DNA of 21,379 nt from a virus, in IMG/VR virus record IMGVR_UViG_3300032053_000620, positions 1 through 21,379 of that record. One strand, given 5' to 3'. Below are positions 5,633 to 17,886 of the stretch, one piece after another; position 1 is the first letter of the stretch, and every line of letters begins with the position of its first letter. The notes beneath the pieces are model-generated. The model was not told the DNA's origin. It was given only the letters and a program-made list of their open reading frames with translations, and searched no databases. Both the position numbers and the translations under genes were made by a program.

Positions 5633-6382
5633 ATGACCATCAGCACAAAACCATCCAACGAGTTAGTCTGGGATAAGGATTATATCAATCAGATTCTCTG
5701 TGGAGATTGCCTTGAGATAATGAAGAATATACCAGATAAGTCTATTGACCTTGTAGTTACCAGCCCGCCTTATCACGAAAAAAACATTCGGGGGCATAAT
5801 GTTACTTCTTCGCCAATGTATATGAACTTTTTTACGCCATTTATTCAATATGCTGATTTATTTTATAAAGAGTTATACAGAATAACCAAGAACAATGCTT
5901 TAATAAATTTGGGATATAACGCTGATACTGGGTGGCAACACATATTAAAACTAATAATCCCAGCCTTAAACTATTTTCAAGGCAAAGAAATAATTATTTG
6001 GGAAAAGTCTAACCCCGAACCCAATAGTATGGGTGGACTAACTCATTCATTTGAATTCATTTTTATATTATACAAAGATAAAAAAAATAACTATATCAAA
6101 AAAGGCGAATATATAAAAGACCTTATCCGGGAAGGGGTAGATACCAAATCTGGATTGTGGGGTAATATTTATCACGGATGTCCTTTCCCCATTAATCTGA
6201 TTAAAAAACTACTACTCTATTTTTCTATGGAAAACGACCTTATATTAGACCCATTTCTCGGTTTTGGCACAACCGCCGTTGCCTGCAAGGAACTCGGTAG
6301 GCGGTTTATAGGTATAGAAATCAGCGAGAAGTATTGCGAGATAGCAATGAAGCGGTTAAGCCAAGGGGTATTATCATTATGA
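5633..6382 (+). CDS. DNA methyltransferase, beta class (N4-cytosine or N6-adenine), copy 1
   Basis: 249 residues. Catalytic motif IV TSPPY is at 43-47 and the SAM-binding motif I DPFLGFGTT at 206-214. This IV-first, I-last order defines beta-class amino-methyltransferases, with the target-recognition region in between (about 50-200). It transfers a methyl group from SAM to an exocyclic amino group of DNA. TSPPY fits both N4-cytosine and N6-adenine enzymes. No restriction endonuclease is adjacent, so it is probably an orphan methylase protecting phage DNA or controlling expression. The first ~47 and last ~44 residues are almost identical to the next gene. The coding centre is clearly more AT-rich than the ends. 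Confidence 0.9.
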   Translation: MTISTKPSNELVWDKDYINQILCGDCLEIMKNIPDKSIDLVVTSPPYHEKNIRGHNVTSSPMYMNFFTPFIQYADLFYKELYRITKNNALINLGYNADTGWQHILKLIIPALNYFQGKEIIIWEKSNPEPNSMGGLTHSFEFIFILYKDKKNNYIKKGEYIKDLIREGVDTKSGLWGNIYHGCPFPINLIKKLLLYFSMENDLILDPFLGFGTTAVACKELGRRFIGIEISEKYCEIAMKRLSQGVLSL

Positions 6383-7134
6383 TTATACAATCCCGACCAT
6401 CCAACGAGTTAGTCTGGGATAAGGATTATGTCAACCAGATTATCTGTGGGGATTGCCTTGAGATAATGAAGGACATACCAGACCAGAGTATTGACCTTGT
6501 GGTTACAAGTCCGCCTTATAATAAAGGAATAAAAACTGGTAGGAAAAATGGAGCGTGGGAAAGAGATATTGATTACGGGGAATATAAAGATGATATATCC
6601 GAGTGTGAATATCAAGAATGGCAAATAAATATATTAAAAGAGGCGATAAGGATAATAAAAATAACCGGTAGCATTTTCTATAACCATAAAGTTAAGTTCA
6701 TAAATAATAAATTGCTTATACCTACTGAATGGTTGAGTGGTTTTAATATAAGACAGATTATTACTTGGGATAGAGGGAGTAGTCCAATGATTGATTCTGT
6801 TAGATTTCTTCCGTCTACCGAATTAATCTATTGGATAACCAAAGTTAATATAGCCCCGAAGTTTAATCCCATAGCCCATAGTTTCAGAGATGTATGGCGT
6901 ATAAATTCCGATACAAGGAATAATCATCCCGCACCATTCCCGTTAGAAATACCCAAGCGATGTATTATTGCCTGTTCTGATATAAACGACATTATTGTTG
7001 ACCCTTTTTGTGGTTCGGGCAGCACTGCCGTTGCCTGCAAGGAATTAGGCAGGCGGTTTATAGGGATTGAAATCAGCGAGAAATATTGCAAGATGGCGGA
7101 AAGGCGATTATCACAAGGTATATTATCATTATGA
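6379..7134 (+). CDS. DNA methyltransferase, beta class, copy 2 (tandem paralogue)
   Basis: 251 residues, ATG 6379 overlapping the copy 1 stop (ATGA). Motif IV TSPPY is at 43-47, motif I DPFCGSGST at 208-216. The N-terminus (PSNELVWDKDY...GDCLEIMK...SIDLVVTSPPY) and C-terminus (AVACKELGRRFIGIEISEKYC) nearly repeat those of copy 1, including 33 identical bases. The centre (about 50-205: GRKNGAWERDIDYGEY, RQIITWDRGSSPM, SFRDVWRIN) shows no evident similarity to copy 1. That centre holds the target recognition region, so the two enzymes probably methylate different sites. They are co-translated and likely co-regulated. Confidence 0.9.
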   Translation: MIIQSRPSNELVWDKDYVNQIICGDCLEIMKDIPDQSIDLVVTSPPYNKGIKTGRKNGAWERDIDYGEYKDDISECEYQEWQINILKEAIRIIKITGSIFYNHKVKFINNKLLIPTEWLSGFNIRQIITWDRGSSPMIDSVRFLPSTELIYWITKVNIAPKFNPIAHSFRDVWRINSDTRNNHPAPFPLEIPKRCIIACSDINDIIVDPFCGSGSTAVACKELGRRFIGIEISEKYCKMAERRLSQGILSL

Positions 7135-7355
7135 CAATACAGACACGACCATCCAATGACAACTACCGGCAGAATTATGATGGGATATTTAGGAAGAAGT
7201 ATTCAATGGAAAAATGGTGTTGTTACGGGTTGCCCGATGGGACACAATGCAATATCCTTATTGAGGTGATTGAAGCGGACTATCCGAACGGTATAACCAG
7301 CGGACTGTGTCCTGAGCATCAGAAGATATGGGAAGATAAAATTGTGGAATTATAA
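7131..7355 (+). CDS. Small Cys-rich protein carrying a third copy of the methyltransferase leader
   Basis: 74 residues from ATG 7131, which overlaps the methyltransferase stop (ATGA). The first residues MTIQTRPSN repeat the N-terminus of both methyltransferases, after which the sequence diverges. The rest, from an alternative start ATG 7206 preceded by AGGAAGAAG (WCCYGLPDGTQC...CPEHQ), has spaced Cys/His residues suggesting a zinc site, and is probably the ancestral gene. So this looks like a short fusion created at a duplicated seam. It ends with GAATTATAA of the junction element at 7346-7370. Function unknown. Confidence 0.55.
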   Translation: MTIQTRPSNDNYRQNYDGIFRKKYSMEKWCCYGLPDGTQCNILIEVIEADYPNGITSGLCPEHQKIWEDKIVEL

Positions 7356-7851: not shown

Positions 7852-7874
7852 GGAATTATAGGAGGTGAAAGATG
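7852..7874 (+). repeat. Stop/Shine-Dalgarno/start junction element, copy C
   Basis: GGAATTATA followed by GGAGGTGAAAG and ATG. The same string, with small changes, ends at the start codons at 7368, 7607, 8836, 8996, 9337, 9998 and 10236. Here it gives the 7872 gene its ribosome binding site. Confidence 0.75.
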
Positions 7875-8591
7875 TGTGAATTTATATCGTGGATAGAGAT
7901 GAATGGCAGGATTTTGTTTCTAACCGATGAGGATATGAAACAGAAGAACAAAGAGATGTCTGCGTGGAATCAGGATAAATCAGAGTGGCAGGGACACGGG
8001 GGCATCAGGTTTTATTATCAACTTGAAGATTCAGATGGTATAAACAAAGAAAATACTAATTTCTCATCTCCTGACAACTTCCCCAAGGTAATTAGCAATG
8101 CGATAAAACAAGGCAAGATAACCTATGGAATAACGCCCGAAATAACGGAACAAATACTTGAGCAACCGGCTTGGGCTGAGTATAATAAGATTCAGCAATC
8201 GGCTCGGGCTGAGTATGAGAAGATTCGGCAACCGGCTTGGGCTGAGTATAAGAAGATTCAGCAATCGGCTTGGGCTGAGTATGAGAAGATTCAGCAATCG
8301 GCTCGGGCTGAGTATAAGAAGATTCAGCAACCGGCTTGGGCTGAGTATAAGACGATTGAGCAATCGGCTTGGGCTGAGTATAAGACGATTGAGCAATCGG
8401 CTTGGGCTGAGTATAAGAAGAAGATTAAGCAATTGGCTTGGGTTGAGTATAATAAGATTAAGCAATCGGCTTGGGCTGAGTATAAGAAGAAGATTAAGCA
8501 ACCGGCTTGGGCTGAGTATAAGACGATTGAGCAATCGGCTTTCAGCAAACTTGTAAAAATAAAGAAGAATCGCAATAAGATATGGCAATAG
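7872..8591 (+). CDS. Protein with eleven-residue (hendecad) AWAEY repeats
   Basis: 239 residues. The N-terminal domain (1-97) has W-rich, beta-like segments (FISWIEMNGRILFLTDED, HGGIRFYYQLEDSDG) that I do not recognise. Residues 98-220 are eleven tandem units of consensus Q(S/P)AWAEYKKI(Q/E/K); two units (8 and 10) are 12 residues long. A half unit QSAFSKL and a basic tail (KIKKNRNKIWQ) end the protein. Eleven-residue periodicity with Ala and aromatic positions suggests a right-handed coiled coil or a solenoid helix. Repeat number may vary between relatives through slippage or recombination. Similar repeat proteins occur in other phages, but I know no proven function. Confidence 0.75.
   Translation: MCEFISWIEMNGRILFLTDEDMKQKNKEMSAWNQDKSEWQGHGGIRFYYQLEDSDGINKENTNFSSPDNFPKVISNAIKQGKITYGITPEITEQILEQPAWAEYNKIQQSARAEYEKIRQPAWAEYKKIQQSAWAEYEKIQQSARAEYKKIQQPAWAEYKTIEQSAWAEYKTIEQSAWAEYKKKIKQLAWVEYNKIKQSAWAEYKKKIKQPAWAEYKTIEQSAFSKLVKIKKNRNKIWQ
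8163..8531 (+). repeat. 33-nt coding tandem repeat (11 units)
   Basis: Units of 33 nt, two of 36 nt, with core GGCTTGGGCTGAGTATAAGA. Length is always a multiple of three, so the frame is kept; other frames on both strands also stay open through the array and should not be called genes. Confidence 0.85.
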
Positions 8592-9339: not shown

Positions 9340-9708
9340 GATACAAAAGTAGAAGTGTTGACAATAAATGGTATAGAGTATGTGCCGAAAGAAGGTCAAT
9401 TACAAATGGCGAATGTTTGCAACGGAATGAAGTATGTTATTGTGAGGACATGCTCAGCCGGAGTATTTGCTGGGTATATAGAATCAAGGAATGGACAAGA
9501 AGTAGTATTGAGGCAAGCACGCAGATTATGGTATTGGGATGGCGCGTCGTCGTTATCTCAGTTAGCGATGGAAGGAGTAAAGAGACCGCAGACTTGCAAG
9601 TTTCCTTGTGAGGTAGAAAGAGTAGAACTTTTACAGGTGATAGAAATTTTGGACTGCACCGAACAGGCAAGAAAGAATATTGCTGAGGTAGAAATATGGA
9701 AACAATAA
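9337..9708 (+). CDS. Conserved phage protein, DUF6948-like
   Basis: 123 residues, AAAGGAGGTG eight bases upstream. The central region NGMKYVIVRTCSAGVFAGYIESRNGQEVVL and ARRLWYWDGASSLSQLAMEGV (cited in parts) with CKFPCEVERVELLQVIEIL is a distinctive conserved domain that I associate with DUF6948; the number is from memory. The family is beta-rich, widespread in phages, and has no known function. It is often followed by a Gly-X repeat protein, as here. It overlaps that gene by 13 nt. Confidence 0.75.
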   Translation: MDTKVEVLTINGIEYVPKEGQLQMANVCNGMKYVIVRTCSAGVFAGYIESRNGQEVVLRQARRLWYWDGASSLSQLAMEGVKRPQTCKFPCEVERVELLQVIEILDCTEQARKNIAEVEIWKQ

Positions 9709-10004
9709 AAATTGGCTCTGGCGATGGCTATGGCGATGGCGTTGGCTCTGGCTCTGGCTCTGGCTATGGCTATGGCTCTGGCTATGGCTTTGGCTCTGGC
9801 TCTGGCTCTGGCTCTGGCTATGGCTCTGGCGATGGCGATGGCTATAGCTATGGCTCTGGCTTTGGCTCTGGCTCTGGCGATGGCGATGGCTCTGGCTCTG
9901 GCTCTGGCTCTGGCGATGGCGATGGCGATGGCTCTGGCTATGGCTCTGGCTATGGTAACTATAAACTCGGCTATACCCAGCCGAGCGGAATTATAATATG
10001 CTAA
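9696..10004 (+). CDS. (Gly-X)n low-complexity protein
   Basis: 102 residues. After METIKI the protein is an unbroken Gly-X alternation (X = Ser, Tyr, Asp, rarely Phe or Val) for about 81 residues, then NYKLGYTQPSGIIIC. The start overlaps the DUF6948-like gene. Longer relatives I recall carry a folded C-terminal domain after the repeat. Here the tail is instead encoded by hairpin copy G and the junction element, so this copy appears truncated. The repeat would be disordered and hydrophilic. The alternative frame reads (Met/Leu-Ala)n, which I reject. Confidence 0.6.
   Translation: METIKIGSGDGYGDGVGSGSGSGYGYGSGYGFGSGSGSGSGYGSGDGDGYSYGSGFGSGSGDGDGSGSGSGSGDGDGDGSGYGSGYGNYKLGYTQPSGIIIC
9714..9956 (+). 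repeat. Six-base GGCNNN tandem repeat
   Basis: About 40 units of GGC plus TCT, TAT, GAT or similar, coding for Gly-Ser, Gly-Tyr and Gly-Asp. GGC is used for nearly every glycine, unlike the mixed codon use elsewhere, which suggests growth by slippage. Confidence 0.9.
9966..9985 (+). promoter_or_regulatory. Intergenic hairpin, copy G
   Basis: CTCGGCT, loop ATACCC, AGCCGAG: a perfect 7-bp stem. It lies inside the end of the Gly-X gene and just before GGAATTATAATATG at 9987-10000, where the AAGGAGGTGAAAG part of the junction is missing. Confidence 0.65.
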
Positions 10005-14434: not shown

Positions 14435-15007
14435 ATGGCAACCGGCAGGAAAACGGTTATGGAAAAATTAATTTGGCATACTGAAAAACGCAAGATAAAG
14501 GATTTGATTCCCACCGAAGGCAACCCGCGCCAGATGACAGAGAAGCAGGCAAGAGATTTGCAGACATCATTGGAACGGTTCAATCTCGTTGACATACCGG
14601 CGATAAACACTGACAACAGGATAATATCCGGACACCAGAGAGTTGCCATACTGAAAGTATTGAAGCGGGATGGTGAGAGGATTGATGTAAGAGTTCCCAA
14701 CAGGAAACTGACCGGGGGGGAGCATAGGGAATATATGATCAGGGCAAACCGCAACCTCGGTGAGTGGGACTATGACCTACTTGCTAACTTTGACGAAGAA
14801 CTTCTTAAAGATATTGGTTGGGACAGCACCGAACTTGACCAGATATTCCAGTTGGAATCAGAACCGACAGATAATATTCCTGACATTCCCGAATATTTAA
14901 CTTTTATTGTAACATCTAAACAAAAAAAAGAAATAGAAAATCGTCTTGATAAGTGTAAAGGTGAAAACAGGACAGAGCAATTATTATGGTTAGTGAAACA
15001 AAAATAA
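14435..15007 (+). CDS. ParB-like nuclease-domain protein
   Basis: 190 residues, with GGGGGAGG just before ATG 14435 (ATG 14459 is a possible alternative). The ParB/Srx N-terminal fold is seen: EGNPRQMTEKQARDLQTSLERF, then the signature RIISGHQRVAILKVL (about 66-80). No helix-turn-helix centromere-binding domain follows, so it is the short phage form, often next to methylases or terminase, and is not a partition protein. It may be a nuclease or nucleotide-dependent switch. The last ~45 residues (YLTFIVTSKQKKEIENRL and on) are encoded by markedly AT-rich DNA, suggesting a chimeric 3' end. It overlaps the next gene by 22 nt. Confidence 0.8.
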   Translation: MATGRKTVMEKLIWHTEKRKIKDLIPTEGNPRQMTEKQARDLQTSLERFNLVDIPAINTDNRIISGHQRVAILKVLKRDGERIDVRVPNRKLTGGEHREYMIRANRNLGEWDYDLLANFDEELLKDIGWDSTELDQIFQLESEPTDNIPDIPEYLTFIVTSKQKKEIENRLDKCKGENRTEQLLWLVKQK

Positions 15008-15749: not shown

Positions 15750-16337
15750 ATGGTCAGCGGAAGAACCGAAAGCCGGAGGGCGGGGGATGGGATTAATAAG
15801 TCCGAAGTATCATCATACCAAAACAAGCCGGCACGAAAGAAACAGCAGAAGAACACGCAGGCTAAGTGGCTGACCATTAGGATGGCTTATACTGACAGGG
15901 AGGATGAGCCATCCATTCGCCAATTGGCAATGGAGTTCGAGATAAGTCTTGCTCAACTGGGACGGAAAGCAAGAAGCGAGAATTGGGTATCACAACGCAA
16001 GGAACATTGGAACAGGATAGGAACAAAGATAGCCAGAAAATGTTCATCCGACACGGCGGAACGGCTCATCCGCAACCAGAAGGTGGTGGCGGGGGCGATA
16101 GGGTATGTTGTCAGCCAGATAAAGAACGGAAGCATAAGGGCGAACCTAAGCGACCTTGACAAACTGATACGGCTTGAGGAATTTGTCCATGGCGGTCCCG
16201 ACAGCCGGCCCGATGCGTTGAGCGGGATAGAGGGAATTATTAGGGAACTTGGAAAAAAAAGGGCGATGGAACATAGGAATGTGGTTGCCGAGGACCAAAG
16301 AATAATCAATGGAACAGGTTCAGACAATACCGAATAG
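15750..16337 (+). CDS. terS: Terminase small subunit-like protein
   Basis: 195 residues ending 29 nt into the large-subunit gene. A helix-turn-helix occupies about residues 54-85 (PSIRQLAMEFEISLAQLGRKARSENWVSQRKEHW, cited by parts: PSIRQLAMEF and GRKARSENW), typical of phage terminase small subunits that recognise the packaging site. The basic, disordered N-terminus (KPARKKQQKNTQAK) and helical centre with an oligomerisation-like segment (LSDLDKLIRLEEFV) agree. No strong Shine-Dalgarno is visible before ATG 15750, so the start is uncertain. Identification rests on position plus HTH. Confidence 0.65.
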   Translation: MVSGRTESRRAGDGINKSEVSSYQNKPARKKQQKNTQAKWLTIRMAYTDREDEPSIRQLAMEFEISLAQLGRKARSENWVSQRKEHWNRIGTKIARKCSSDTAERLIRNQKVVAGAIGYVVSQIKNGSIRANLSDLDKLIRLEEFVHGGPDSRPDALSGIEGIIRELGKKRAMEHRNVVAEDQRIINGTGSDNTE

Positions 16338-17886
16338 TATCAGGGACATCTGGGGTAGTGATGCCCGCTACATCCAGCGGTTCCTCTGTATCAGGGACAA
16401 GGTGGGGCGGATAGTCCCGTTCTTCTTCAACCGGACACAGGTGGCATACCGGCGGATGAAGGGGATGGAACTGGCCAGGAGGCGGGAGAGGGATAGGAAT
16501 GCAAAGCCCCACTATCTTGTCCTAAAATACAGGCAGGGGGGGATAACGACCGAGGAGCAGGCGGAAAGTTTCTACTTGACGGCCACAAGGGAGAACCAGA
16601 GTCTTGTCACCCTTGCCCATGACAAGGCAAGCACGATAGAGATATTCAGAATGGTCAACCTCTTTGACCGGAAACTGACCCCGGAAATAAGGCCGGTCAG
16701 GGATTACGAGAACAAGGCCGAGATAGAGTATAAGGAACTCAATTCCAAGTTTCACATCGGGACGGCCGGGAACAGGACATTCGGGCGTGGCATGACACTC
16801 CAGCGGGCCCATGGAAGTGAGATAGGATTATGGGGCAGGACCAAGACTGGTTATTCAATGAATGTGCAGGACATAGCCAACCTGATTGCCGGCCTGTGCG
16901 AGGCATGTCCCTACGGTCCGGTGGTATTGGAGGGAACTGGCCAGGGGGCGAAGGGGTGGTTCTATGAGACTTGGAACGAGGCGAAGAAGGGCGGGAACGA
17001 CTGGATACCGATATTCCTGCCCTGGTTCATAGAGCCGATGAACTCATTACCGCTTGAAATAGGTGAGGAAATAACCTTGACCGAGGATGAGAAGAACTTC
17101 GTTGAGATGGTGGCAGGCAAATACAGCATGGCAATCAGGCCCGAGCAGTTGAAGTGGCGCCGTGCCAAGCAGAATAGCCTCAAGAAACTCTTCCTTCAGG
17201 AATATCCTGAAGACCCGATTACGGCATTCCTTGTATCCGGCCAGCATTACTTTGACATATCAATTATAAACAGTCTTGTCAAGTTATGCAAGCCGCCGGT
17301 TGAGGTAAGGGATGACGGATGCCTGACCGTCTGGGCCAAGCCGGTTGAGGGACATAAGTATATCATAGGTGGCGATGTCGGGGAGGGACTGTCGAACTCA
17401 GACTTTTCTGTGGCCGCGGTGCTTGACTACGAGACCTGCGAGCAGGTGGCGTGCTTGCATGGGAGATGGAAGCCGGAGGTATTCGGTGAGAAGATGGCGA
17501 AACTCGGATACGAATACAACACGGCATTGCTGGCGCCGGAGGCGAATAACCACGGGCATAGCACGCTTAATACCCTGCTTAATGTAATCCACTATCCACG
17601 ACTCTATTATCACAGGGACTATGATGCCACCAGCCAGTCCGCAAAACTCGGTTGGCAGACGAACGCCAAGACGCGCCCGATTATGCTGACCGGCATAAAG
17701 ACTGCAGTGGAAGATGGATTTATGAAAGTCAACTGTCCGATATTCCTGTCTGAGTGCAGGAACTTTCAGGACTCGGGTGAGGGGAAATATGAGGGCGACC
17801 ATGATGATACTATAATCGCATGGGCAATTTGTTTTGCTGTTAGACAGATAGGCTTCGGCCCTGAGCCGAGGGTATCGGTGATATGA
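16309..17886 (+). CDS. terL: Terminase large subunit (ATPase and nuclease)
   Basis: 525 residues. ATPase domain: deviant Walker A KYRQGGITT (73-81), LVTLAHDKAS (99-108), Walker-B-like GSEIGLW (169-175, E171), coupling-type motif LEGTGQGAKGWF (208-219). Nuclease domain (RNase H-like): GGDVGEG (354-360; D356), APEANNHG (409-416; E411) and GDHDD (496-500). These residues drive DNA translocation into the prohead and cut the concatemer. The length is normal for the family. It overlaps the small subunit by 29 nt and the following gene by ATGA. The headful or cos strategy cannot be read from the sequence. Confidence 0.95.
   Translation: MEQVQTIPNSIRDIWGSDARYIQRFLCIRDKVGRIVPFFFNRTQVAYRRMKGMELARRRERDRNAKPHYLVLKYRQGGITTEEQAESFYLTATRENQSLVTLAHDKASTIEIFRMVNLFDRKLTPEIRPVRDYENKAEIEYKELNSKFHIGTAGNRTFGRGMTLQRAHGSEIGLWGRTKTGYSMNVQDIANLIAGLCEACPYGPVVLEGTGQGAKGWFYETWNEAKKGGNDWIPIFLPWFIEPMNSLPLEIGEEITLTEDEKNFVEMVAGKYSMAIRPEQLKWRRAKQNSLKKLFLQEYPEDPITAFLVSGQHYFDISIINSLVKLCKPPVEVRDDGCLTVWAKPVEGHKYIIGGDVGEGLSNSDFSVAAVLDYETCEQVACLHGRWKPEVFGEKMAKLGYEYNTALLAPEANNHGHSTLNTLLNVIHYPRLYYHRDYDATSQSAKLGWQTNAKTRPIMLTGIKTAVEDGFMKVNCPIFLSECRNFQDSGEGKYEGDHDDTIIAWAICFAVRQIGFGPEPRVSVI

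Follow-up and report, generated by a model that had tools for sequence, protein, structure and literature searches.

Bacillus phages encode multispecific C5 methyltransferases, which are single C5 proteins that act on several sites and combine a common catalytic part with several exchangeable recognition modules. The two enzymes described here, methyltransferases A and B, differ from these in being two separate amino-methyltransferases. In Helicobacter pylori, recognition domains of Type III mod genes and Type I specificity genes move between non-orthologous methyltransferase genes (PMC3983042, PMC7379913), and this movement occurs at weakly similar motif-coding DNA (PMC3983042). As in H. pylori, recombination at motif-coding DNA would have changed the recognition part, with the catalytic ends staying in place. 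Unlike in H. pylori, however, the genes are small, Type II-like beta-class phage genes, the whole centre (including motifs V–VIII and X) differs, both versions stand in tandem in one genome, and a change in specificity is probable. One accepted way for permuted DNA methyltransferases to arise is by duplication (PMC3320104, PMC5944983; for permutation by duplication, Jeltsch 1999 and Bujnicki 2002 as presented in these two papers). The A/B locus resembles that route in its head-to-tail genes, with a continuous catalytic block composed of the end of the first gene and the beginning of the second, but A and B are separate and already permuted, and no new permutation has been formed. B also resembles bdelloid N4CMT (PDB 8s9m–8s9o; PMC8885841), which it matches over its whole length with 36–40% identity and a common SPPY motif, and phage members exist among the bacterial and phage N4-cytosine relatives of N4CMT. 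Unlike the bdelloid enzyme, B is the product of an orphan phage gene that stands in tandem and has ends like those of A. Conserved methyltransferase motifs are already known as sites of recombination, and the A/B case is a variant of this; it differs in that phage orphan genes are concerned, that the whole centre is involved, and that both products stand in tandem with the shared block between them.

Architecture of the two genes and their shared ends

The window, i.e. the whole stretch of 21,379 bases that was analyzed, is the contig of an uncultivated virus and carries a terminase and further phage genes (PHROG profile scan). Methyltransferase A (5633–6382, 249 aa) and methyltransferase B (6379–7134, 251 aa) are encoded head to tail on the plus strand, on which all parts of the genes discussed below are also located, and their open reading frames overlap by 4 nt (ATGA). 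This tandem arrangement, which had been proposed at the same coordinates in a first-pass annotation, is confirmed by the reading frames and by matches to the PF01555 profile (E-values of 4e-35 for A and 1e-44 for B), which is covered nearly in full. Both proteins also match PHROG DNA methyltransferases (A matches phrog_67 with an E-value of 1e-58), and they are classified as a beta-class amino-methyltransferase (A) and a beta-class enzyme of probable N4-cytosine type (B). The frames are open and the motifs intact: A contains the catalytic TSPPY (residues 43–47) and DPFLGFGTT as motif I (DPF.G at residues 206–210), and B contains TSPPY and DPFCGSGST. The permuted motif order of the class was confirmed, with motif IV near the N-end, followed by the recognition region and then by motifs X, I, and II at the C-end. 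The structural models concur, as AlphaFold predicted a beta-class fold for both A and B with moderate confidence (mean pLDDT of 75 and 77, respectively). The tail of A contains the sequence AAGGGG 5′ of the B start, which could be the ribosome-binding site of B. No restriction endonuclease was recognized among the window proteins that were scanned with Pfam and PHROGs, which comprised part of the neighboring ORFs. Elsewhere in the window (14435–15007), a ParB-like protein also matches the N-terminal part of the phage methyltransferase profile phrog_498.

The N-end of A (5650–5773), which extends from the leader PSNELVWDKDY to motif IV, is 90% identical over 124 nt to the N-end of B (6396–6519) in an ungapped alignment. 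The C-end match covers 176 nt at 78% identity (6232–6407 and 6984–7159) and continues past the stop codon to include the beginning of the gene that follows; within it, the C-end of B (6984–7134) comprises motifs I and II and the tail SQGILSL. The ends are thus shared, as described in the first-pass annotation, but the term ‘nearly identical’ used there is too strong for the proteins, in which A and B are ∼83% identical over the first 47 residues and ∼82% over the last 44 (counted on the alignment). The run of identical bases that had been given as 33 nt (5651–5683 and 6397–6429) was found to be 34 nt long (5650–5683 and 6396–6429). Between the ends, the centers of A (5774–6231) and B (6520–6983), each with motifs V–VIII, the recognition region, and motif X, are AT-rich as had been noted (GC content of 31% and 34%, respectively; the ends have 40–44%, and the window as a whole has 44%). 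DNA identity of the centers drops to background, and amino acid identity is 19% over 150 aligned columns. The earlier view of centers without evident similarity therefore stands as regards strong divergence, but not as regards unrelatedness, because their local alignment (score of 77, shuffle mean of 30) was equaled by 0 of 300 shuffles and the predicted fold is the same, which makes the two centers distant homologues.

Because the class is permuted, the end of A and the start of B form one continuous block (6232–6519) with motifs in the unpermuted order I-II-III-IV, as read from the sequence; the C-end supplies motifs I and II, and the N-end supplies motifs III and IV. This block matches 6984–7159 (78%) and 5650–5773 (90%). 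The shared start occurs a third time 3′ of B (7131–7159), as a partial copy that is identical to the B start at 23 of 29 nt; its alignment with B has a score of 28 (the maximum in 1000 shuffles is 25), and its similarity to A alone is not significant. This copy forms the head of ORF C (7131–7355, plus strand, 74 aa, alternative start at 7206), for which no family was found by profile scans and no phage relative in searches. The search for relatives that would fix its start yielded nothing but a short match of the LCPEHQK type, located in unrelated genes.

Recombination, constraint, and ancestry of the centers

At the protein level, conserved ends and divergent centers are usual in the family. 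For example, A and the viral gene L005 are 84%, 22%, and 79% identical in the N-end, center, and C-end, respectively. The contrast at the protein level alone therefore proves nothing, and the DNA evidence decides; identity of the protein ends was rejected as evidence, as L005 and others match in this way without recent DNA kinship. Identity along the gene changes stepwise and not gradually, in agreement with the expectation of the first-pass annotation: the AIC was 241 for a step model and 280 for a gradual model, i.e. 39 units in favor of the former. The steps are located at A residues 48 and 201, which correspond to motif IV (TSPPY) and the strand that precedes motif I, so the differing segment consists of motifs V–VIII, the recognition region, and motif X. 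The proportion of synonymous differences between A and B (pS) is 0.36 in the N-end (33 codons) and 0.49 in the C-end (41 codons), whereas all pairs with L005 or with the gene of a more distant virus (G002) have values of at least 0.74. Synonymous sites in the A–B ends have thus not reached saturation, whereas they are saturated in relatives whose protein ends are equally similar. In a comparison panel of 24 family genes (276 pairs), the DNA identity of the ends was highest for A–B (0.80, followed by 0.68; mean of 0.53, sd of 0.06), and the pooled pS of A–B (0.46) was the lowest among the 188 pairs with dissimilar centers (median of 0.83). Orthologues in the panel have centers that are about as similar as their ends.

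Approximately unbiased (AU) tests rejected a sister grouping of A and B for the alignment of the centers (p = 0.011) and did not reject it for the ends. The tree built from the protein ends is weak and does not group B’s ends with those of A in preference to the relatives of its center. GC3 decreases from ∼0.46 in the ends to ∼0.30 in the centers of both genes, and in 25 other family entries (with L005 entered twice) this difference averages none (sd of 0.09). The contrast amounts to ∼2 standard deviations per gene and places A and B second and third of 27, with one other gene exceeding them. The shared ends also take in the non-motif leader, the non-motif tail, and the gene junction, and are therefore not explained by motif constraint. 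Sharp breaks at conserved motifs and discordant ancestry, by which movement of recognition domains is recognized, were both observed, with the ends tree by itself not decisive. Recombination bounded by the shared ends of A and B is supported by these comparisons. The first-pass proposal that recognition domains were exchanged by recombination at the shared ends is supported in part, as regards recombination, by the step model, the unsaturated synonymous sites, the AU test, and the GC3 shift, but not in the idea that the recognition domain alone was exchanged, as the breaks at motif IV and before motif I delimit a larger segment.

The center of B is 37–40% identical at the amino acid level to L007–L010, and 34 phage records match it. 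Its relatives include cyanophage and Methanosarcina virus genes, as well as alphaproteobacterial, spirochaete, and Synergistaceae genes, and one relative on an Acinetobacter plasmid adjoins a gene for a restriction enzyme of the MvaI/BcnI family. B matches the bdelloid N4CMT structures 8s9n/8s9m with an E-value of 1e-50, and its predicted fold agrees. The N4CMT clade is located near TCGA- and CCSGG-specific enzymes (PMC8885841). Judged by these similarities, the center of B belongs to the N4-cytosine clade. For the center of A, there was no phage match at 1e-5, and in both sequence and predicted fold A is closest to CcrM (6pbd), an N6-adenine enzyme. B, with SPPY and kinship to N4CMT, is probably an active N4-cytosine methyltransferase. 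A is probably active as well and may also methylate N4-cytosine, as suggested by its SPPY motif, but this is less sure because of its proximity to CcrM. The two enzymes probably target different motifs and would thus represent two specificities.

Proposed origin of the pair and alternative explanations

We favor, with a probability of roughly 0.6, an origin in which a phage methyltransferase gene was duplicated and the center was replaced in at least one copy, resulting in two probably active enzymes with different targets. An orphan phage methyltransferase gene would have been duplicated head to tail, and we infer that only afterward did at least one copy receive the center of another beta-class methyltransferase in place of its own. 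The crossovers would have occurred within or beside the sequences encoding conserved motifs IV and I. Exchange at the I-II-III-IV blocks would swap the whole center (motifs V–VIII, recognition region, and motif X), and because the class is circularly permuted, complete genes would remain after such an exchange, coupled by ATGA overlaps. The permuted beta class may be well suited to this process, because the conserved halves of neighboring genes join into one recombining block. Both products would mark phage DNA, which may protect it with two methylation patterns against host restriction. The pair would then be a clear case of center exchange whose two products are encoded next to each other in a single phage genome and are directly comparable, and it suggests how small phage methyltransferases acquire new specificities against restriction. 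Searches of viral contigs recovered no donor, no single-gene ancestor, and no DNA-level relative that combines these ends with a different center. A further-reaching scheme, which we regard as doubtful, is that the I-II-III-IV block is a standing recombination module with which phages gain, lose, and shuffle whole centers within ∼290 nt, in which case start copies such as that at 7131–7159 would be scars and the locus a growable array of specificities.

The main rival to center replacement is a live one, although on balance we consider it rather unlikely: two different methyltransferases became neighbors and gene conversion homogenized their ends, with the centers never exchanged. It would also account for the stepwise change and the synonymous differences, the motif-coding ends are the sole parts alike enough for conversion to start, and the protein tree of the ends leaves B unseparated from the relatives of its center. 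However, conversion would then need to extend at both ends beyond the motifs, to include the non-motif leader, the non-motif tail, and the sequence past the stop codon as far as the next start, whereas duplication accounts for the shared non-motif flanks in one step; moreover, other adjacent beta-class pairs have no such homogenized ends. Ordinary tandem duplication with subsequent gradual divergence, in which the center was free to change and the ends were held by selection on catalytic motifs, agrees with the presence in the ends of catalytic and cofactor motifs that are conserved family-wide. We find it improbable, since the synonymous sites of the ends (dS of about 0.5–0.8) are unsaturated yet the centers are nearly without similarity, orthologues elsewhere hold their centers as similar as their ends, and both the preferred step model and the rejection of A and B as sisters in the AU test for the centers argue against it.

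An assembly artifact, in which the genes of two strains were joined at their similar ends, would be conceivable for the contig of an uncultivated virus, and a second contig with the junction was not found in the searches. Nevertheless, the longest identical stretch is just 34 nt, embedded in repeats that are 78–90% alike, and this is a short basis for a false join, given that assembly usually relies on long k-mers. The reading frames and ATGA overlaps are also intact, and we consider an artifact very improbable.

Relatives, candidate parallels, and other features of the viral genomes

Searches of viral contigs with the A protein returned no relatives, and those with B returned two partial relatives. 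Viral contigs were also scanned with narrow degenerate patterns representing the start and C-end, and no relative with the same ends was identified. A strict pattern for the junction, which matches the window, had no hit in any further viral contig; this pattern is also narrow, and rarity is not implied. Seven other adjacent or nearby methyltransferase pairs (L012, L014, L018, L055, L074, L075, and L077) were rejected as parallels, with shared ends of at most 20–43 nt, and a 53-nt match in L074 is merely the overlap of two frames. L074 (978–3746), from a Synergistaceae genome, contains three consecutive beta-class methyltransferase frames without shared DNA ends. L030, a Cloacimonadota contig, was likewise rejected as a case of the same ends, as it contains a single methyltransferase frame of 718 aa with a long insert (305–2461); the N- and C-ends of this frame are like those of A and B, and it is overlapped in another reading frame by an HNH-like frame (1749–2264).

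Counted on both strands of the window, several sites are scarce: GATC occurs 8 times (174 expected), CTAG 0 times (46 expected), TCGA 40 times (117 expected), and CCNGG 114 times (207 expected). This may reflect restriction avoidance. The counts were discarded as a hint of specificity, as several sites are scarce and none points to A or B.

Two virus records, IMGVR_UViG_3300032053_000277 and IMGVR_UViG_3300009285_000009, are related to that of the window. The contig of the closest sister virus starts downstream of the A/B locus. The more distant virus G002 has one related methyltransferase gene at another location, upstream of a large frame that was read as portal-like. In the sister virus L058, the terminase frame (186–2837, 883 aa), which corresponds to 16309–17886 of the window, contains an intein-like insert that begins with CFTADTKISF and ends with VHN before S; the insert is absent at the equivalent point of the window terminase. 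Proteins with short tandem repeats are encoded in the window (7872–8591 and 9696–10004) and in L055 (4666–6369), with AWAEYKKIQQ-like and GSGSGYG-like repeats, and the related virus G002 encodes a similarly repetitive KVWAKVRDKVGD protein.
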